Below, piece by piece: positions 1-60,907 of a DNA stretch of 64,000 nt. The position numbers were made by a program, and so were the translations under genes. The notes beneath the pieces are model-generated. The model was not told where the DNA came from and ran no database searches. It saw only the letters and a list, made by a program, of their open reading frames with translations. The DNA is taken from IMG/VR virus record IMGVR_UViG_3300032046_005540, positions 104,268 to 168,267 of that record; one strand, given 5' to 3'. This DNA is from a virus. Every line of letters begins with the position of its first letter. The first letter of the stretch is position 1.

Positions 1-621
1 CATTGCAAGTTTTGAAGGAAATTGACCTCCAGTTGTTTGATCTAATTCAGTCATTCCATAAGGAATTCCTTTGTATTTTTCTGGATGTTCTTTTTTATCT
101 AAATATTCTTTCCATCTTATCTCAGGATCTTCATCAAGAAGAAGTCTACGAGTAACTTCATTTGAAGAATCGAATGTTTTAATATTTAAAATCTTTCCAG
201 TAATATCTGACAAAGAATTAGAAATATTTCGGTCATTTGCTAAATCTTCTACCATATCAAAAGCAGTATTGTATAGTTCTCTTTTAATTTCTAATTCTTT
301 CAACTCATCCAAATAAAACCTGAACCCAGAATCATCTACAAATGTTTTTGATAACTCTCCATGTAAAGTTAATAAAGTAAATTGAAGATCAGTAGAAAAC
401 TCTTTTTCATTTCTTTTCAAAAACTTCTCTAAAATATCGTAAGATAAAGTTTTATGATATTTTTCAAAATATCTACTTATTAAGTCAAATAACTTTTTAT
501 GATTTTCATCACAAAATGTTGAAACTTTAATTTTAGAAAGAGTTTCCTCTATATAACTAACATCTTTAAGTAGATATGAAAGAATAGTTTTTTCAACTAC
601 ATTATCATTAAATTTTACCAT
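1..621 (-). CDS. DnaB-like replicative helicase, N-terminal part (runs off the window)
   Basis: This open frame starts at an ATG at 621 and continues without a stop to base 1, giving the first 207 residues of a longer protein. The N-terminal ~110 residues are helical and open with a VVEKTILSYLLKD-like stretch, as in DnaB N-terminal domains. Residues 185-199 (GIPYGMTELDQTTGG) match the segment that begins the RecA-like motor domain of DnaB helicases (family pattern GIPTGFxxLDxxTGG). Walker A lies beyond the edge. DnaB helicases are hexameric 5'-3' unwinding motors at the replication fork. A DnaC-like loader is encoded 2.2 kb upstream (2777-3520), which fits a phage replisome module. Only the motor domain's missing part keeps this from being certain. 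Confidence 0.8.
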   Translation of the reverse strand, partial: MVKFNDNVVEKTILSYLLKDVSYIEETLSKIKVSTFCDENHKKLFDLISRYFEKYHKTLSYDILEKFLKRNEKEFSTDLQFTLLTLHGELSKTFVDDSGFRFYLDELKELEIKRELYNTAFDMVEDLANDRNISNSLSDITGKILNIKTFDSSNEVTRRLLLDEDPEIRWKEYLDKKEHPEKYKGIPYGMTELDQTTGGQFPSKLAM

Positions 622-623
622 AT

Positions 624-1361
624 TTATTCACTTTTTTTAGACTTTGGAAAGTTTACAAAAAATGGCATCGCAACATCAAAAGTAAGTCTTGGATCTTTAA
701 AACTTTTAACTACTTCATAATAAGATTTCAAAGGCATTCCATTCCACTTTTTTTCATTCCACAACTTATTTAACTTTGTACCCTTTGCAGGCCTACAATA
801 CATTGCGTGAACTTGAATAATATTAGGAAGAGACAAAGATTGTTCTAATGATTCTCTAAACTCCTTTATAGCAGTTTCATTATCTGTTACATAAGGTTTT
901 GCTAATATATAAATAATATACTCAAAATTTCTATTTTCACTAACTAACTTTTTTACATCTTCAAAATCAAAACCCTTTCCAATCTCTTTACTTCTATTAG
1001 GAAATACCGTCTCTAAACCAATACAAACTTCCATTTCAATTTCAGGTTTTTCATTTGGAATAAATTCAGGTCTTGATTCTACTCTTAATTTTTTAACGCC
1101 ATTTTCTTTTAAATACTTGATAACATCTCTCCAAGAAACTTGCATTTGTTCTAAATCAAAAAAGGATCCAGAATTAAAAATTCTAAAGTATTCAGGATAC
1201 CCTCCATATGTTTCTTTACATGTTTTGAATTGGTCCCAAATATCTTCAGGAGTTGTTTCTGGATCCGTATCTTTTTTGAATCCACAGAAAATGCATCTAC
1301 CCCATCTACAAGGCTTTACTCTTAAGCAAATTGTATTTTTATCCATCCAAACACATTTCAT
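624..1361 (-). CDS. Radical SAM enzyme resembling RaSEA (archaeosine synthase lyase subunit)
   Basis: The 245-residue protein has three cysteines as C18-x4-C23-x2-C26 (CRWGRCIFC), suited to bind a 4Fe-4S cluster for S-adenosylmethionine cleavage. Further along it carries SGSFFD (64-69), ESRPEF (95-100), IGLET (114-118) and a YILAKP strand (151-156). These blocks, in this order, are what I recall of the TIGR01210/RaSEA family. In archaea RaSEA acts with ArcS and cleaves the lysine adduct of preQ0 in tRNA to leave archaeosine. Here the gene overlaps a small coiled-coil gene, which overlaps an ArcS-like gene, so the two partners are adjacent. It is shorter than cellular RaSEA as I remember it, so it may be a minimal version. 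The substrate (DNA or RNA) is inference; radical SAM membership is secure. Confidence 0.75.
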   Translation of the reverse strand: MKCVWMDKNTICLRVKPCRWGRCIFCGFKKDTDPETTPEDIWDQFKTCKETYGGYPEYFRIFNSGSFFDLEQMQVSWRDVIKYLKENGVKKLRVESRPEFIPNEKPEIEMEVCIGLETVFPNRSKEIGKGFDFEDVKKLVSENRNFEYIIYILAKPYVTDNETAIKEFRESLEQSLSLPNIIQVHAMYCRPAKGTKLNKLWNEKKWNGMPLKSYYEVVKSFKDPRLTFDVAMPFFVNFPKSKKSE

Positions 1362-1506
1362 TCATATCCTCCCTCTCTTCTAATCTCCTCAACTCAATAT
1401 CTATCTCTTTAAGTTTTTTACTTTTTTTATCAAGTTCTTTTTCCAAATGAACAATTTGAAGTTCTAATTGACCTTTCTTTCTTTTCAAACAATTGTAGTC
1501 TTTCAT
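1339..1506 (-). CDS. Small coiled-coil protein between the ArcS-like and RaSEA-like genes
   Basis: A 55-residue open frame starts at the ATG at 1506, which overlaps the TGA stop of the ArcS-like gene (ATGA), and ends inside the RaSEA-like gene (23-nt overlap). The product is highly charged. Residues ~15-46 have a leucine/isoleucine heptad pattern (QLELQIVHLEKELDKK and following), so it probably forms a coiled coil. No enzyme motif is visible. The two-sided overlap suggests translational coupling and a structural or regulatory role in the same complex. That role is inference. Confidence 0.55.
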   Translation of the reverse strand: MKDYNCLKRKKGQLELQIVHLEKELDKKSKKLKEIDIELRRLEEREDMNEMCLDG

Positions 1507-2294
1507 ATTATCCCCTTTATTTTTTCAGCTTCGGTAGGAGTATCAATCCCACACAATTTAATAATTTCTAAAAATGGTTCATACCTATGAAAATTCCTAT
1601 ATTCGTCAAATTTATTAATTGAAAAATACTTTTTACATCTTAAATAAACTTGCCACAAATCCGGATACGAATTATTATATTTAAGAACAAACGGATGTTC
1701 CCAAAATTCTTCAGGAACTACTCCAATAGTAGTAATTACTACTTTATAATATTCGTCTAAATTTTCTATTTTCGCATATATCTCCTTATGAGTTTTTGAA
1801 GTGTTATAAGGTCTTTCAGCAGAACAAGACAAAAGTAAACATTTCTTTTTATCAGTTTTAAAACTACTCATTTGATCTAACAATTCACGAATATACAACC
1901 TATTATAAGAATGGAAACTTGATACCATTATCTTTTTATCTTCAGGTAAAATATCTTTAGTAACCCCTTTCAAATCAACTTGCATTAGAATATCAGAACA
2001 AATAGGAGTAAAAGAAGCAAACATTTCTATTAAATCACGAAGACAACCTTTTTCTTTTGCCCTCTCTATCCAATTCAAAATTTCTTCAATAGAATAAATA
2101 GACCATAATCCATAATTAATATCTTTGTGAACACTTTCTTTTTCAACCTCATGACCAAAATAAATCAAAAACGGAACTTGACTTAATGGTGCGTTCTTTA
2201 CAAACCACTTCTCTTTCAACCCACGAGAAGCAAAAGATTTGAGTGCGGTTCCATTATAAACAAAAGGATATTTTTTAAAATCAACGGTTTTCAT
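1503..2294 (-). CDS. ArcS-like protein (archaeosine synthase catalytic core, DUF5591-type)
   Basis: The 263-residue protein carries the signature C157-S-A-E-R161-P-Y163-N-T-S166-K-T-H169. This fits the archaeosine-synthase motif PC-x3-KPY-x2-S-x2-H, with Ser for Pro and Arg for Lys. Downstream it has VVITTIGVVPEE (185-196), the counterpart of the family's [VI]-x-[SG]-x3-GVVPxEL block, then a Pro/Tyr-rich segment. Cellular ArcS transfers lysine onto the nitrile of preQ0 in tRNA. Here the usual TGT-like and PUA domains are absent: the N-terminal ~140 residues are unlike those domains and are probably an own helical region. It overlaps the zinc-ribbon gene upstream and the coiled-coil gene downstream by 4 nt each. 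I am confident of the superfamily; the exact substrate is unknown. Confidence 0.75.
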   Translation of the reverse strand: MKTVDFKKYPFVYNGTALKSFASRGLKEKWFVKNAPLSQVPFLIYFGHEVEKESVHKDINYGLWSIYSIEEILNWIERAKEKGCLRDLIEMFASFTPICSDILMQVDLKGVTKDILPEDKKIMVSSFHSYNRLYIRELLDQMSSFKTDKKKCLLLSCSAERPYNTSKTHKEIYAKIENLDEYYKVVITTIGVVPEEFWEHPFVLKYNNSYPDLWQVYLRCKKYFSINKFDEYRNFHRYEPFLEIIKLCGIDTPTEAEKIKGII

Positions 2295-2461
2295 ATTGCC
2301 TTAATAAAAGTTTTTATTGCTTTACAAATTTCACAATGAGTAACAAAAGACTTTGCAGGTTTATTCTTTCTTTTAAATCCTAAAAATTTTCCTCTCCATT
2401 CCGCCACTATATCGATTTTTACATTACCACATTGCTCACATTTGTATGAAATAGCTTTCAT
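2291..2461 (-). CDS. Small zinc-ribbon protein
   Basis: A 56-residue open frame starts at an ATG at 2461, 7 nt after a strong GGAGGT site that lies in the tail of the upstream gene. It contains C8-x2-C11 (CEQC) and C43-x2-C46 (CEIC), a classical four-cysteine zinc ribbon separated by a basic segment (WRGKFLGFKRKNK). Its TGA stop overlaps the ArcS-like start as ATGA. The position makes it the first gene of the putative deazaguanine-modification operon. It could bind nucleic acid and present the substrate, but that is inference. Confidence 0.65.
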   Translation of the reverse strand: MKAISYKCEQCGNVKIDIVAEWRGKFLGFKRKNKPAKSFVTHCEICKAIKTFIKAI

Positions 2462-2462
2462 T

Positions 2463-2777
2463 TTATTTACCTCCTAAATTTTCAAATTCCTCGCAAGCTT
2501 TTTTAAAAACTTCTTTTTTTGTTTTTCTATTATAAATAAAACTTTTACTGCCTAAACATTCTTCTACTTCATTCTCTTCGATTTTTTTAAATATTATAAA
2601 TTCAGGTTCATAATATTTTGAATCTCCTCTACCACACCAAGCAGTTTTTCCACCTACCTTACATAACATACCAATTTCTGTTTCTTTTATAATTTCTACA
2701 TTCGCTCCGAAATCTACCCCAGGCACTTCTATACAATTTTTTCCTTTTTCGTTAGTATATCTTTTTATAGTAGCCAT
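2463..2777 (-). CDS. Hypothetical protein, 104 aa
   Basis: I do not recognise this protein. The N-terminal ~65 residues look like a small beta-barrel (alternating strands with VPGVDFGANVEII and MLCKVGGKTAWC). The C-terminal ~40 residues are charged and helical. Its ATG overlaps the TAA of the helicase-loader gene by one base (TAATG), so it is translationally linked to replication genes. Its last codons contain the ribosome binding site of the zinc-ribbon gene. No signal peptide or membrane segment is present. Confidence 0.6.
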   Translation of the reverse strand: MATIKRYTNEKGKNCIEVPGVDFGANVEIIKETEIGMLCKVGGKTAWCGRGDSKYYEPEFIIFKKIEENEVEECLGSKSFIYNRKTKKEVFKKACEEFENLGGK

Positions 2778-3520
2778 TATTTTTCTCCTAACAATTCTTT
2801 TTTAATATCTTTTAAAATCTCAGGACGAAAACTTTCACCAACTAAAGGAACATTGATCAATCTCTCTGAAAAAATTTCATAAATAGTTTTACCAAAGCCT
2901 TCTAAAACTTTTGAAGGTTCCTTATTAGAAGTTACAATAAATGGTTTTCCCGAATAATACCTTTTCTTAAACAACTCATCTAACAAAGTATCAATCAATT
3001 CTGTTTTATATTTTTTGTCTATTTCATCTACGAGTAAAAAATCCACATCTTCTATAATATAGAAAAGAAATTCTTTTGTTCTCATATCTCTTAATGCGGT
3101 ATGAGCTAAATTTATCAATTCCGAAAGAAGAATAAAATGAGCTTTATATTTTTGAGTCAAAGCCTTTTTCAAAATTGAACATCCAATAAAACTTTTACCA
3201 ACACCATAAGAACCATGAATAAACAAACCAGAACCTGTTTCGACAACTTTAGATAAATTTTCCGAATACTTACCAATAATTTCTAATGAACCGCTATTTT
3301 TATCTAAAAATGGTGAAGTAAAGTATTTAAAATCAAGTTCCAAATCCCAATAACTTCTAGGAATATTTGCATTAAGCATATCTACATAACGCCGAAACTC
3401 ATCAATACAACTACACAATTTAAAACCTTCAGGAGTTAAATAACGACCTTTACCTTCACATTTAGAACAATTGTCTAAAATCTTTATTTTTAATTTTTCT
3501 ACATCTTGAACGGAATACAT
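2777..3520 (-). CDS. DnaC/IstB-like AAA+ ATPase, probable helicase loader
   Basis: The 247-residue protein has a complete AAA+ core. Walker A is GSYGVGKS (103-110), Walker B is LLVDEID (162-168), the sensor-1 region is TSN (197-199), and the arginine-finger region is SERL (218-221). Before the core there is a small zinc-binding cluster, CSKC (18-21) and CSC (36-38). DnaC/IstB family loaders of this size and layout load DnaB-type helicases on DNA. A DnaB-like helicase gene lies 2.2 kb downstream in the same transcription direction, which supports this role. IstB-type transposition ATPase is the main alternative, but no transposase is nearby. Confidence 0.8.
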   Translation of the reverse strand: MYSVQDVEKLKIKILDNCSKCEGKGRYLTPEGFKLCSCIDEFRRYVDMLNANIPRSYWDLELDFKYFTSPFLDKNSGSLEIIGKYSENLSKVVETGSGLFIHGSYGVGKSFIGCSILKKALTQKYKAHFILLSELINLAHTALRDMRTKEFLFYIIEDVDFLLVDEIDKKYKTELIDTLLDELFKKRYYSGKPFIVTSNKEPSKVLEGFGKTIYEIFSERLINVPLVGESFRPEILKDIKKELLGEK

Positions 3521-4953: not shown

Positions 4954-5506
4954 TTTTATTCACCTCCTCTTTTCCTAAAGATTTTTTCAACTTCTCTTTT
5001 AACTCTTCTCCAGATAATTGACTCTTCGGTAAATTTTCAATTTTAGTATCCTCTATCCTATTATACACCCTTTCACTTCGCTTGGAGACAAAATTTTTAT
5101 AATTTTTTAGTTGATCGTCACTTGTTATCAATCCCATCTTAATTTTGTAATTCTCGTTTGCAGTTTCAAATAAAAAATCAATAAAGTCCTTAAATTGTTC
5201 TTTGGATAAATTTTTGTTCCTTTTCCAAAAGTTAGTAATTTTGAACGCCTCCAACCTAAAGGAAGCTGAAGATTCCATAACATATGTTTCTCCATAAGCT
5301 TCTTTATACTTCTTTAGAAAATAACGGATAAAGTGTTGACAATTCCATTCTTCCACATGAATATTCAAATCCATATCTTTGTGGTTCTTTGTGGAAAACA
5401 CTTTAGGTTCTTCAAAGTCAAGCTGGTTCTTTAGGCGTTTAAGCTCCTTTTGCTGCTTTTCTAAAGTATGTAGTAGTAGGTTATATTCGATAGGGTCAAT
5501 TTGCAT
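4934..5506 (-). CDS. Hypothetical helical protein, 190 aa, possible replication accessory
   Basis: The N-terminal ~30 residues form a coiled coil (LLLHTLEKQQKELKRLKNQL). A globular helical middle with many aromatics follows (~50-140), then a lysine-rich disordered tail ending SGEELKEKLKKSLGKEE-like. No catalytic motif is seen. The architecture (short coiled coil, helical core, basic tail) and its position among helicase-loader and helicase genes would suit a replication initiator or loader accessory. That is inference only. Confidence 0.55.
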   Translation of the reverse strand: MQIDPIEYNLLLHTLEKQQKELKRLKNQLDFEEPKVFSTKNHKDMDLNIHVEEWNCQHFIRYFLKKYKEAYGETYVMESSASFRLEAFKITNFWKRNKNLSKEQFKDFIDFLFETANENYKIKMGLITSDDQLKNYKNFVSKRSERVYNRIEDTKIENLPKSQLSGEELKEKLKKSLGKEEVNKNEKSKK

Positions 5507-5526
5507 TTAAGTTTCTTATTCCACTT

Positions 5527-5847
5527 TTAATTTTGAAGATATTTATCTATTACCTTTTTAAACTCTTCGTTCATTAAAACATTATTTTTTTCAAGTAACT
5601 TTTCCGCTAACTCTTTAAAAATATCTAAAGGTAATCCCGTCCCTAAAAGCCCTTTTTTAAAAGGAACACTTTGTCCTTTTGCGTCTTTTACATTTTTCCA
5701 ATCTAATACACTATATTTTAAAAAAGTCAAAATTCGATTTATAGGGGAACCTTTTAATTTAAGCCAATTTATACCAGCTACAGGAGTAAGTTTTTGACAA
5801 ATAAAAGTTGCACCCTCAATTTCAATAGTAAATTTTTCATTAATCAT
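5527..5847 (-). CDS. Hypothetical protein, 106 aa, tail-assembly-chaperone-like pattern
   Basis: The protein opens with a beta hairpin (KFTIEIEGATFICQKLTP). It then has helices and a block VLDWKNVKDAKGQSVPF followed by LPLDIFKELAEKLLEK. Similar patterns (V-x-W-x-N-[VI] then VPF then a helix) occur in small tail assembly chaperones of siphoviruses and myoviruses. The location, far from the tail genes and among early genes, argues against a simple chaperone role. It may be a paralogue with another use. Treat the name as tentative. Confidence 0.4.
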   Translation of the reverse strand: MINEKFTIEIEGATFICQKLTPVAGINWLKLKGSPINRILTFLKYSVLDWKNVKDAKGQSVPFKKGLLGTGLPLDIFKELAEKLLEKNNVLMNEEFKKVIDKYLQN

Positions 5848-5903
5848 AAAATTATATTCTCCTTTCTATTCTATAAATAGTTATGAATAATCCCCTTTAT
5901 TTA

Positions 5904-6347
5904 TTATTTAATGATCTCTCGGTCTTCGGCAACCCAATCTAACCAACTAACTCCTGTATGGGGGTTATTTCCAGCATCAACCAAAAAATGTTTGAAATAT
6001 TTCTTCTCTGGATAGTTAAGGTTTGTTTGATTTAAGAATGCTTCTTTTGAATCAAATATCTCTATAAAAACCCATCCGTTACTCTCTGCCATATAGTTAG
6101 TTTTAAGATAAGAGGCAAGCGTTAGAACTTCTTCTTTAGTAGCTTTTTCAGATACTAAAATTACTTTTCGTGATCCAAGTCCATAGTCCCTAAATACTTC
6201 ATATTTAATGAGAAGTTGTTCTACTTTTTCTTGCAATTGATATTGCCCAGATGGCAAGTTGTTATTTTTAGGATCATTTCCACAAGAAAGACTGAAAAGA
6301 AATATTCCTAACAAAAAAATACCCAAAACTTCTTCTATCCATTTCAT
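5904..6347 (-). CDS. Predicted lipoprotein, 147 aa
   Basis: The start at 6347 is chosen because AAAAGGAGG lies just upstream and because it creates a proper signal peptide; the longer frame to 6425 overlaps the next gene. Residues 1-24 are a lipoprotein signal: a charged start, the hydrophobic run VLGIFLLGIFLF, then a lipobox-like SLSC with Cys24. The mature part (~120 residues) has a short Asn-rich linker and an alpha/beta domain with GSRKVILVSEKATKEE. It would be anchored in the envelope by lipid. With the upstream gene it forms a pair of exported phage proteins behind a phage promoter. Superinfection exclusion is a reasonable guess. Confidence 0.6.
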   Translation of the reverse strand: MKWIEEVLGIFLLGIFLFSLSCGNDPKNNNLPSGQYQLQEKVEQLLIKYEVFRDYGLGSRKVILVSEKATKEEVLTLASYLKTNYMAESNGWVFIEIFDSKEAFLNQTNLNYPEKKYFKHFLVDAGNNPHTGVSWLDWVAEDREIIK

Positions 6348-6373
6348 AACTTTTCCTCCTTTTTTTAATGCTT

Positions 6374-7081
6374 TTACATCCTTCCAATAGGTAGAACACA
6401 ACCAATACCTATACCTACATCCCAATTACCATGATTTTTAGAATACATATCATAACCAAAATTCAAATTTAAAGGGCCCATTCCAACAATACATCCAAAA
6501 GATATTCCTAATTTATTATTAGACTTCATTGATTCTTCATCTGGATTATCTTTAAGAAGATAGTCATTTTGCCAAACCCTAAATGTATCATCATGATATT
6601 TTCGATAATTTGTCCAACCATACCATCTTAAAGCCACATACGGGATTACTATATTACCCCCATATTTTTTAAAAATTTCTGGAGTATAGTTATCTCCCAA
6701 TAAAATAGAATGAGATACACCTATACCTACAGAACGAGATTCTTTTTGAATTCCCATGAATTTACTTTTATAAAAATGTTCCACTCTATCTATAGAAAAA
6801 TTATAAACTTTATTCTGATCAACAAATTTACTAACTTTCCCATCAAAATATAAACCCCACTCATGAGGTCCTGTAACTACAAAATAAAATCCTAAAGGTT
6901 GCTCTGGAAATCCTCCCACATAACCTACACCTATATAACTTGGGGTACTTTCCAACTCTGCTCCATGAGATTTTGAAACTCCTAACAAACATACACATCC
7001 TGCACATACACAGAATAACAAGAAAATCAATGCTAATACTACTCCTATTGTTGCTCCAAATCCTTTTCTTACACTACCCAT
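6374..7081 (-). CDS. Exported beta-rich protein, outer-membrane-barrel-like, 235 aa
   Basis: The protein has a positively charged start (GSVRKG) and a long hydrophobic signal or anchor (residues ~9-36, containing two Cys). About 190 residues of alternating beta strands follow, rich in aromatic and Gly residues, with repeated GIGVG, GISFG and GIGIG patterns near the end. That resembles small outer-membrane beta barrels. It starts 24 bases downstream of a conserved phage promoter and is followed by a predicted lipoprotein gene. A role in altering the host surface during infection is inference. No enzyme motif is visible. Confidence 0.55.
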   Translation of the reverse strand: MGSVRKGFGATIGVVLALIFLLFCVCAGCVCLLGVSKSHGAELESTPSYIGVGYVGGFPEQPLGFYFVVTGPHEWGLYFDGKVSKFVDQNKVYNFSIDRVEHFYKSKFMGIQKESRSVGIGVSHSILLGDNYTPEIFKKYGGNIVIPYVALRWYGWTNYRKYHDDTFRVWQNDYLLKDNPDEESMKSNNKLGISFGCIVGMGPLNLNFGYDMYSKNHGNWDVGIGIGCVLPIGRM

Positions 7082-7162: not shown

Positions 7163-7687
7163 CTATAATACAATTTTTAATACTTTCTTCTCCTTTAAAT
7201 CTAATTCATTCTCCAATCTACTATTCAAATGTCTTTTCATATCAAAACATCCTTTTGCCCCTTTAAACCAAAACTCAAATCTGTCTTCATGCAATTCTGC
7301 TTTTTTCAAAATTCTTTTTGTATTATGATAAGGAGCCAAAACAACAACCCGATTATATTTTGAAAAATCAGGGTGACTTTGTTTTATTTTTTCACTCATT
7401 TCATTCATAGTTTTCTTATTAAATTCATCAATTCGTTGCCTTTCTTCTTTAGATATATCTCTCATATATCGGGGGTATTCTTGCCAAGTATCATTGTATG
7501 GTTCAATTAAAGTATCAGGATTTAAAAACCCATATTTAGAAGATAAAATTACAATATCTGCTTTCAATTGTTCTGCGATACTTTTACATAATCTAAATTG
7601 AGGAGATATAGAATAACATTCTATCGCTTTTGTGGGTGCTTTTGTTTTACTTTTAGAACAACCAATAATACATAAAATTTTATTCAT
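7163..7687 (-). CDS. DUF6884-like protein, 174 aa
   Basis: The N-terminus reads as strand-C10-S-K-S-K14, followed by Y25-S-I-S28 and then VILSSKYGFLNP (46-57) with IEPYNDTW. This is the pattern I associate with the DUF6884 family, small proteins common in phages. The same order of motifs (CS-x3-K, a Tyr-x-x-Ser, then a hydrophobic strand ending in G-[FV]-[LV]-x-P) occurs in the ArcS-like protein at 1503-2294. I therefore suspect a shared fold, possibly related to nucleobase modification. The function is unknown. It is followed by an unannotated 80-base gap carrying promoter copy 1. Confidence 0.6.
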   Translation of the reverse strand: MNKILCIIGCSKSKTKAPTKAIECYSISPQFRLCKSIAEQLKADIVILSSKYGFLNPDTLIEPYNDTWQEYPRYMRDISKEERQRIDEFNKKTMNEMSEKIKQSHPDFSKYNRVVVLAPYHNTKRILKKAELHEDRFEFWFKGAKGCFDMKRHLNSRLENELDLKEKKVLKIVL

Positions 7688-59128: not shown

Positions 59129-60095
59129 TACTTATTCTTTCTTGTAAAATGTTTTTTACTTCTTTTGCATTATTTAAAATATCATCTTCCCAAAAACGTA
59201 AAAGAATAAATCCTTTATCTTTTGCTAATTGTTCGTTTTTAATATCTCTTTGTTTAGTTTCTTTTTGTATTTTATTTAATTTAATAAACTTTTTAGGGTT
59301 GCTATGCCAATAGTCTCCATCTACTTCTATAAGAATATTGGTGTTTAAAATATGAAAATCATATAAATGATTTCCTAATCTAAATTGGTGGCCAAAAGGA
59401 ATATTAAGAGATGTTAATATTTCTTTCATTTTAAGTTCTGGTTTAGTATCTTTAAAAGGTCCTAAATTAGTTCGAGACAATGCTTTTTCTCTCATTTTCT
59501 GTTTTTCTTCCTCAGAACGTTTTTGTCCTTTCTTTTTTTCGCTTGCTCTTTTTATTCTTTCATCTGTTTCTTTTGTTAGGCCTATACTCCAAGATTTTTG
59601 TCCTAAATGAGAATCATGCATTTTTTGTTTTGTTTTTTCTCCTTTGTGAGAGTCACTATAAGTTCTTAATTTATATCCATTTTTTATAATAATATTTCTA
59701 ATAGTTGCGTGGTTACATTTCCACTTCTCACCTAAAACTGTAATACTGGGGCTTTCTTTTGAAAAATATTCTTTACAAATTTGATGTTCTTCTTCTTTTG
59801 TAAATATGCATCGTTTTCTTTTTATTTCTTCAGGTATTTTACGTCCTTCTAAACTTTTGCTTATTTTTTGCAACCCTTTATTAGTTTCTTTTGTAAACCC
59901 TTTACTCCAAGATTTTTGTCCTATATGAGATTCACTTAAATTTCTTAAAACATAACCGCTTCTTCGAATAACATTTTGAATAGTTGCTCCGTCACAATTA
60001 TATTTTTTAGCTAAAGTAGCAGTACTTGGTTTTCTTTCAGAAAAATAATCACTACAAATTTGTTTTTCTTGTTCTTTTGTAAATAGGTTTTTCAT
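59115..60095 (-). CDS. Free-standing homing endonuclease, EDxHD family, 326 aa
   Basis: It carries two helix-turn-helix units (KPSTATLAKKYNCDGATIQNVIRRSGY and SPSITVLGEKWKCNHATIRNIIIKNGY), NUMOD modules (GQKSWSKGFTKETNKG, GQKSWSIGLTKETDERIKR), and a catalytic end with PELKMKEIL, LYDFHI, EVDGDYWH and RFWEDDIL. It separates two neck-region genes, with a 23-base gap upstream and a 14-nt overlap downstream. It is closest in plan to the 41611-42717 enzyme. Confidence 0.85.
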   Translation of the reverse strand: MKNLFTKEQEKQICSDYFSERKPSTATLAKKYNCDGATIQNVIRRSGYVLRNLSESHIGQKSWSKGFTKETNKGLQKISKSLEGRKIPEEIKRKRCIFTKEEEHQICKEYFSKESPSITVLGEKWKCNHATIRNIIIKNGYKLRTYSDSHKGEKTKQKMHDSHLGQKSWSIGLTKETDERIKRASEKKKGQKRSEEEKQKMREKALSRTNLGPFKDTKPELKMKEILTSLNIPFGHQFRLGNHLYDFHILNTNILIEVDGDYWHSNPKKFIKLNKIQKETKQRDIKNEQLAKDKGFILLRFWEDDILNNAKEVKNILQERISNAYL

Positions 60096-60118
60096 AATGT
60101 TTAATTACTTCTTAAATA

Positions 60119-60907
60119 TTATTGACTTCCAGCAAATTTGCTACAACCCCTGAGGGCCCGGCTGAGCGATCTAGGAAAACCAACAGTTGAAGAAAATAAT
60201 CCTCGCATTCCTACATGATTAAATGCATACATCTGTTTTACTTTTCTTATTCTTTCTTGATATGCTGAAGCTAAAGATGAATAAATCGATAAATACTTTC
60301 CAGATCTATCTCTGGTAATACTTATTCCATTATCATTATATGCAAAATGTTTTCCAGCTTCTAATATTTCCAAACCAATTAAAGCGTGAATAATTGCTCC
60401 TAATTCAACTTCTCTATAATAAACTGTAGGTAGCGTTTTAAAACTAAACGCTGTTACCAATGGCGGCTCGGCATTAAACCAATCCAACCCATTTTGTAAA
60501 AAGTCCAACATTTCTCTATCACTTAAATATTTATTTCTATATCCTCCAGCATCTAAATGCATATACAATTTAGATCGCATAGCATCTAATAAAGCACCTT
60601 CTACAATAGCTTCTGCTGGATCTTTTAATTTACAAATATTAGGAACATCTTGAGTAGTATATACACCATTAATCCATCCAGACCACCATGCACCATAATA
60701 GCCATAATCCCAACTTGCATCAGGAGTTATTGAATAGTAATATATTCCTGTAGAATCATGAATACCTACTCCTGAAGCTATCTTTAAGGTTCCGTCTTGA
60801 TACATAATCTTTACAGTTACGGAACCGGAAGCATCTATTAAATTAAAATTATTATCTTTAAATTCTGCCCAAAGTCTTTCTGCCTGACCTCTAAATATAA
60901 ATTGCAT
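60119..60907 (-). CDS. Head-tail connector-type protein, 262 aa
   Basis: Residues 1-85 form a beta sandwich (AERLWAEFKDNNFNLIDASGSVTVKIMYQDGT, STGIYYYSITPDA, GYYGAWWSGWING) like the N-terminal domain of BppU-type or neck proteins. Residues ~95-245 are helical, with LLDAMRSKLYMHLDAGGYRNKYLSDREMLDFLQNGLDWF and VELGAIIHALIGLEILEAGKHFAYNDNG. Such a sandwich plus helical core occurs in uncharacterised phage neck proteins. Position between the repeat protein and the neck genes agrees. The family name is uncertain. Confidence 0.5.
   Translation of the reverse strand: MQFIFRGQAERLWAEFKDNNFNLIDASGSVTVKIMYQDGTLKIASGVGIHDSTGIYYYSITPDASWDYGYYGAWWSGWINGVYTTQDVPNICKLKDPAEAIVEGALLDAMRSKLYMHLDAGGYRNKYLSDREMLDFLQNGLDWFNAEPPLVTAFSFKTLPTVYYREVELGAIIHALIGLEILEAGKHFAYNDNGISITRDRSGKYLSIYSSLASAYQERIRKVKQMYAFNHVGMRGLFSSTVGFPRSLSRALRGCSKFAGSQ

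Follow-up and report, generated by a model that had tools for sequence, protein, structure and literature searches.

What do relatives of the archaeal archaeosine enzymes ArcS and RaSEA do in the genome of a phage? The two genes lie side by side in the window studied here, i.e., the last 64,000 nucleotides (positions 104,268-168,267) of the 168,267-base IMG/VR virus record IMGVR_UViG_3300032046_005540 (G000). To our knowledge, archaeosine was long thought to be confined to archaeal tRNA. We consider it fairly probable that this phage converts guanine within its DNA into archaeosine (deoxyarchaeosine, dG+) by a two-step route involving lysine. Open reading frames (ORFs) were called and analysed in the rest of the record as well; positions are given in window numbering or, with the prefix G000, in whole-record numbering. 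Since the record has tail sheath and terminase matches along with DNA polymerase, DnaB and DnaC-like genes, G000 can be considered a contractile-tailed phage.

A preliminary description of this DNA reported four overlapping or abutting genes, coding for a zinc ribbon, an ArcS-like protein, a coiled coil and a radical S-adenosylmethionine (SAM) protein. All four ORFs are present on the minus strand (Table 1). Each overlaps the next, by 4, 4, and 23 bases in turn, and DnaB starts 2 bases downstream of the radical SAM gene. The motifs cited at that time can also be read in the translations: CSAERPYNTSKTH (C-x3-RPY-x2-S-x2-H) and GVVPEE in the ArcS-like protein, CRWGRCIFC (C-x4-C-x2-C), SGSFFD, ESRPEF, and IGLET in the radical SAM protein. 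Profile comparison places the two proteins with the ArcS (DUF5591) and RaSEA (TIGR01210) families, respectively, with matches beyond what chance would give; had neither been placed there, the preliminary description would have been refuted.

The ArcS-like protein matches Pfam DUF5591 (PF17884) with 35.2 bits, above the gathering score of 26 (E=1.3e-8), over profile positions 12-66 of 150 only. The NCBIfam archaeosine synthase profile NF040592 is matched with 52.9 bits (E=2.3e-14) over the core only, at profile positions 208-344 of 575, and NF053620 also matches the core segment only (E=6e-13). In PDB, AF0587 (2q07) is matched with E=2e-6. The signature of ArcS is PC-x3-KPY-x2-S-x2-H. It reads SCSAERPYNTSKTH in the window copy and PCSAKRPYNVSKTH in G001, a sister phage used for comparison (IMG/VR contig 3300032046_006283, 73 kb), so that the lysine is replaced by arginine in both phages and the proline by serine in the window copy. 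Neither a TGT-like N-terminal part nor a C-terminal PUA domain was found by Pfam search in this 263-residue protein.

The radical SAM protein matches TIGR01210 with 105 bits (E=4.4e-30) over profile positions 16-244 of 313, while the next-best family, TIGR01212 (MnmL/YtqA), reaches 27.7 bits. Cysteines 18, 23, and 26 of its [4Fe-4S] motif C-x4-C-x2-C are invariant in G000 and G001. It also carries ESRPEF, which we take to be a RaSEA motif. G001 is the sole source of a relative found for this protein: tblastn detected no RaSEA in other phages across 50,697 phage records and none in plasmids, and motif scans of IMG/VR for distant RaSEA returned G001 only, although more diverged copies could escape them. 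In one of these scans a RaSEA-like row served purely to help define the pattern.

The G001 copies are 75% (ArcS) and 68% (RaSEA) identical to those in the window. Both genes are under purifying selection, with nonsynonymous to synonymous rates (dN/dS) of 0.150/0.964 (about 0.16) for ArcS and 0.232/0.948 (about 0.24) for RaSEA. In G000, DnaB and the DnaC-like loader flank the ArcS/RaSEA pair. In G001 the two genes are also adjacent, but they lie elsewhere, with an SbcC-like gene on one side and, on the other, a gene that probably codes for a single-strand-binding-type protein. Judging from gene order, the two have thus changed place without being parted, which speaks well for a functional pair. 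The two genes could instead be incidental or decaying acquisitions from archaea without present function, as the start of the window RaSEA about 60 residues later than that of G001 may hint. However, the frames are open, the dN/dS values are those given above, the metal-binding and motif residues are intact, and both genes are kept in two divergent phages, so we regard decay as extremely improbable.

The preliminary description had also counted small partner proteins as part of a new arrangement, and this does not hold. The zinc-ribbon ORF, which has only sub-threshold zinc-ribbon matches in Pfam, has no homologue in G001 (E>=1), and the coiled-coil ORF has no convincing one (best E=0.04). Both were rejected as members of the module and, by this comparison, are probably outside its conserved part.

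The supply of preQ0 (7-cyano-7-deazaguanine) can be assigned to genes located just downstream of RaSEA/ArcS, on the same strand and beyond the edge of the window. In the direction of rising record coordinates, QueD is followed by sigma-like and primase-like genes, then DnaB, and then the RaSEA/ArcS genes. QueD and QueE were assigned by Pfam and PHROG matches, their equivalog scores being below cut-off. As FolE2, QueD, QueE, and QueC are all present, G000 encodes the whole pathway from GTP to preQ0; the preliminary description had named the lack of such a pathway in phage or host, together with the absence of deazaguanine from virion DNA and host tRNA, as fatal to its reading. QueF (PF14489) and TGT (PF01702) gave no match in the G000 record, which makes dPreQ1 or queuine products less likely. 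G001 encodes homologues as well, with identities of 65% for QueC, 64% for the phosphoribosyltransferase, 50% for QueE, 73% for FolE2, 49% for QueD, and 60% for DUF366. DUF366 is possibly a part of the 7-deazaguanine gene set.

The search for an enzyme that would insert preQ0 into DNA has led to a small putative transglycosylase gene on the same strand, hereafter DpdA2-like, whose product has no Pfam match. Its tblastn homologues are found in Weizmannia phage Youna2 (2e-19), Cellulophaga phage phiST (3e-9, gp042), and Flavobacterium phage immuto (2e-7), where the gene is annotated as 'DNA guanine transglycosylase' (DpdA), as well as in Bacillus phage BSP7, Vibrio phage D479, Chryseobacterium phage MA9V-3, and Aeromonas phage Ahp1. 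In the regions examined, the homologues of these seven phages are close to FolE, and several of them also have QueD, QueE, and QueC nearby. The motifs MDNG/LDN, PD, QGK, HxLG, and RSxDSS follow in this order and, as we read them, resemble DSG, FG(I)IQG, LMGVG, and DCV/DSS of TGT/DpdA. A nine-member profile of the family scores 13.3 bits against DpdA2 of Vibrio phage nt-1, a value reached by none of 2000 shuffled sequences; with the same profile, the scores of E. coli TGT and phage 9g DpdA were reached by 27 and 184 of 2000 shuffles. We treat the gene as likely to code for a DpdA2-type transglycosylase. G001 has a copy as well (63% identity), together with the NMP-kinase-like (nucleoside monophosphate kinase-like) gene (58%) and the nucleoside diphosphate kinase gene (51%).

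Several observations weigh against these assignments. The ArcS-like protein falls below the equivalog cut-offs of 440 bits (NF040592) and 600 bits (NF053620), and the RaSEA-like protein, at 105 bits, below that of TIGR01210 (212 bits), its G001 copy scoring 79.5 bits. Since no NCBIfam equivalog cut-off is reached, the proteins are named ArcS-like and RaSEA-like. The DpdA2-like protein matches neither TGT PF01702 nor DpdA NF041059, the latter likewise missing the phiST, immuto, and nt-1 proteins, and it is tied to TGT by motifs and by a profile match that is weak. AlphaFold models were unusable both for the ArcS-like protein (two sequences; predicted local distance difference test, pLDDT, 39) and for the DpdA2-like protein of G001 (one sequence; pLDDT 36). 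Finally, queuine lyase (6p78), which is likewise a radical SAM enzyme of 7-deazaguanine chemistry and the best solved relative of the RaSEA-like protein in PDB (E=7.7e-10), itself reaches 64.9 bits with TIGR01210. TIGR01210 alone therefore cannot separate RaSEA from its relatives, and the RaSEA assignment leans on ESRPEF and on the pairing with ArcS.

The shortfall against the TIGR01210 cut-off and the kinship with queuine lyase could mean that we are not dealing with a genuine RaSEA. The chemistry of the radical SAM protein would then be nearer to that of queuine lyase, and the modification would end in a lysine conjugate or some other derivative. Still, with TIGR01210 the phage protein outscores queuine lyase over the same fragment (81.4 bits), queuine lyase lacks ESRPEF, and no queuine-making genes were seen, including in the targeted searches for QueF and TGT. 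The protein is also encoded next to ArcS, which makes the substrate of RaSEA, in two phages and at different loci. We consider this alternative quite unlikely and retain the RaSEA assignment.

Presence of the genes, their family relationships, synteny and selection are supported by the sequence, while the substrate (DNA), how the steps follow one another, what they yield and the benefit are what we infer. In the proposed route, preQ0 would be made from GTP by FolE2, QueD, QueE, and QueC, and the DpdA2-like transglycosylase would swap guanine in DNA for preQ0. The ArcS-like protein would then join lysine to the preQ0 nitrile to form the preQ0-Lys amidine, and the RaSEA-like enzyme, acting with ArcS, would cleave the lysine side chain, leaving the formamidine of archaeosine. 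In Thermococcus kodakarensis, ArcS must be bound to RaSEA to transfer lysine, and bare preQ0 nucleoside or its 5'-monophosphate suffices as acceptor, so that the tRNA fold can be dispensed with (PMC11298593). On tRNA the lysine adduct blocks back-exchange by ArcTGT (PMC11298593), and it would presumably block reversal of the base exchange in DNA too. The modified phage DNA would resist host restriction enzymes: phage 9g DpdA with a G+-forming enzyme placed dG+ in plasmid DNA and protected it from EcoRI (PMC6884629). The two-step lysine route suggested in the preliminary description thus gains support from the ArcS and RaSEA profiles and from the preQ0 and DpdA2-like genes, dG+ remaining the predicted product.

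The same chemistry might operate on nucleotides ahead of replication. In that case a preQ0 nucleotide would be made by the DpdA2-like protein or the phosphoribosyltransferase, ArcS and RaSEA would act on it, and the NMP-kinase-like protein and nucleoside diphosphate kinase would raise the modified nucleotide to the deoxynucleoside triphosphate (dNTP) for the phage polymerase. A P-loop kinase-like gene (AAA_28, AAA_18, or DNMK) adjoins the DpdA2-like gene or lies near it in G000, G001, and several unrelated phages, which hints at such a route; a nucleoside diphosphate kinase gene follows in G000 and G001, and a phosphoribosyltransferase gene is located between QueC and QueE. Moreover, archaeal ArcS takes preQ0 nucleoside 5'-monophosphate as a minimum substrate, but the Michaelis constant for it is very high, 433 uM (PMC11298593), and those phage DpdA enzymes that have been characterised act on plasmid DNA already in place (PMC6884629). 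Deoxynucleoside monophosphate kinases are frequent in phages for other reasons, and the phosphoribosyltransferase, which also occurs in G001 and has a counterpart in the cluster of immuto phages, may simply recycle the guanine released in base exchange rather than make preQ0 nucleotide. Overall, synthesis at the nucleotide level seems unlikely to us, and we prefer modification of guanine already in DNA.

Every ArcS or RaSEA protein characterised so far has tRNA as its substrate, and there are two tRNA genes in the G000 record, so the pair could modify host or phage tRNA during infection. Against this, the ArcS-like protein has no PUA or TGT domain, the record contains no TGT match, the DpdA2-like gene belongs to a type that occurs in 7-deazaguanine clusters of phages, and the genes lie among those of replication (DnaB, primase, DnaC-like, RNase HII). 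A tRNA target therefore appears very improbable, and phage DNA is the substrate we favour.

Table 1. Features of the proposed archaeosine gene set and its surroundings in G000.
Feature	Position	Strand	Remarks
RaSEA-like radical SAM protein, 245 aa	window 624-1361	-	TIGR01210; proposed C-N cleavage of lysine adduct to give archaeosine
Coiled-coil ORF, 55 aa	window 1339-1506	-	between ArcS-like and RaSEA-like genes
ArcS-like protein, stand-alone core, 263 aa	window 1503-2294	-	PF17884, NF040592; proposed lysine:preQ0 amidine-forming step
Zinc-ribbon ORF, 56 aa	window 2291-2461	-	overlaps start of ArcS-like gene
DnaB-type replicative helicase, N-terminal part	window 1-621 (whole gene G000:103497-104888)	-	downstream neighbour of RaSEA
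DnaC-like helicase loader	window 2777-3520	-	phrog_50, E=8e-30; other flank of ArcS/RaSEA slot
DUF6884 protein	window 7163-7687	-	PF21818, 60.3 bits (gathering score 30); possible accessory
QueD	G000:101053-101481	-	PF01242, E=3.5e-30
FolE2	G000:100233-101102	-	252.7 bits, cut-off 215
RNase HII	G000:99271-99972	-	
QueE	G000:98603-99274	-	phrog_2076, E=3e-35
Phosphoribosyltransferase	G000:98136-98603 (L007:3136-3603)	-	between QueC and QueE
QueC, 228 aa	G000:97447-98133	-	150.3 bits, at its equivalog cut-off
DUF366	G000:96539-97108 (L007:1539-2108)	-	PF04017, E=3e-54; between QueC and dUTPase-like gene
Nucleoside diphosphate kinase	G000:88054-88473 (L006)		after NMP-kinase-like gene
P-loop NMP-kinase-like gene	G000:87240-87773 (L006)		beside DpdA2-like gene
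DpdA2-like putative transglycosylase, 264 aa	G000:86431-87225		tblastn homologues in phage preQ0 clusters

The genes flanking the pair in G000 are conserved in G001 (DnaB 71%, DnaC-like loader 73% identity), where the slot between them holds an MT-A70-like methyltransferase reading frame (G001:67777-68325, L040) and small ORFs. This looks like an exchangeable DNA-modification slot, occupied by an MT-A70-like adenine methyltransferase in G001 and by ArcS/RaSEA in G000. In bacterial dpd islands, DpdC is reported to contain the DUF6884 domain (PMC11888242). The DUF6884 protein of the window might contribute a second derivative of preQ0. G001 encodes no convincing homologue of it, and its membership in the gene set is only possible. 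Kinship of ArcS and DUF6884 as two nitrile-acting families was considered and dropped, as profile comparison gave no match.

Elsewhere in the window, an extended run of genes at about 11100-31500 resembles, by eye, glycosyltransferases and methyltransferases and perhaps serves surface or base glycosylation. Paralogous homing-endonuclease-like or helix-turn-helix proteins (G000:2784-3575, 59343-60248, 64949-65776, 69170-70207, 163382-164362, and others), of the FTxEQExQIC..YFS and CIDCxKEIS..AKRC types, are numerous and dispersed in both G000 and G001, and one endonuclease-like insert apparently lies within the terminase ORF (1078 aa). G000:88983-90137 (L006:12983-14137) codes for a protein with a long QVWSQVENQVRNQV repeat tract, its G001 copy being 62% identical.

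Compared with the archaeal tRNA pathway (ArcTGT, ArcS, RaSEA), the phage has an ArcS core with C-x3-[KR]PY-x2-S-x2-H and a RaSEA-family radical SAM protein alongside, and by analogy the lysine-adduct chemistry would be the same. Unlike their archaeal counterparts, the phage proteins are short and the phage ArcS is without TGT-like and PUA parts; no ArcTGT was found in the phage, and the likely target is DNA. These short stand-alone versions may be of use for structural work.

Some Vibrio phages have ArcS or an ArcS-like gene and no RaSEA match. nt-1 encodes a stand-alone ArcS of 226 aa (VPFG_00169), the only NF040592 match in its genome, beside QueD and FolE, and also has preQ0 genes and DpdA2. 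The stand-alone core is thus not the new arrangement that the preliminary description had taken it for. In contrast to the window phage, the whole nt-1 genome has no TIGR01210 match. In its DNA, dPreQ0 predominates and dG+ makes up about 0.02% of G, and because of this the authors who reported nt-1 ArcS left the function of phage ArcS homologues open (PMC6884629). The near-absence of dG+ in nt-1 would be explained by the lack of RaSEA, and nt-1 may hold an unmeasured lysine adduct. Phages GR7B and GR11A have an ArcS-core-like gene adjoining QueC-like genes (two in the cluster) and likewise no RaSEA (TIGR01210) match; their clusters include a gene for a radical SAM protein similar to lysine 2,3-aminomutase of the KamA family (L011:18788-19936 in GR7B, TIGR00238 231.8 bits with a cut-off of 199.2; L012:18751-19899 in GR11A). 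Their ArcS may attach beta-lysine to preQ0.

What is new here, as far as family matches and gene order can tell, is that ArcS and RaSEA occur as a pair next to the preQ0/DpdA2 genes of a virus. No paper linking RaSEA to phages was found, although an earlier mention is possible, two key recent papers being outside our coverage. We also put forward, while somewhat more doubtful than convinced, that this is the first virus with the full archaeal ArcS and RaSEA route turned from tRNA to DNA and that, by extension, the DNA of nt-1, GR7B, and GR11A has 7-deazaguanine conjugated with lysine or beta-lysine. If so, amino-acid-decorated bases would be a class overlooked since that mass was never sought.

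Enterobacteria phage 9g (FolE, QueD, QueE, Gat-QueC, DpdA) resembles the window phage in having phage-encoded preQ0 synthesis and a DNA-inserting enzyme, with dG+ as the end product, proposed in our case. The FolE of the window phage, however, is of the FolE2 type, and its QueC has roughly half the length of 9g Gat-QueC (5207-6622). In 9g this single enzyme makes G+, whereas ArcS and RaSEA would finish the base in the window phage. If the proposed route is true, it would be a second, independent phage solution for dG+ besides Gat-QueC.

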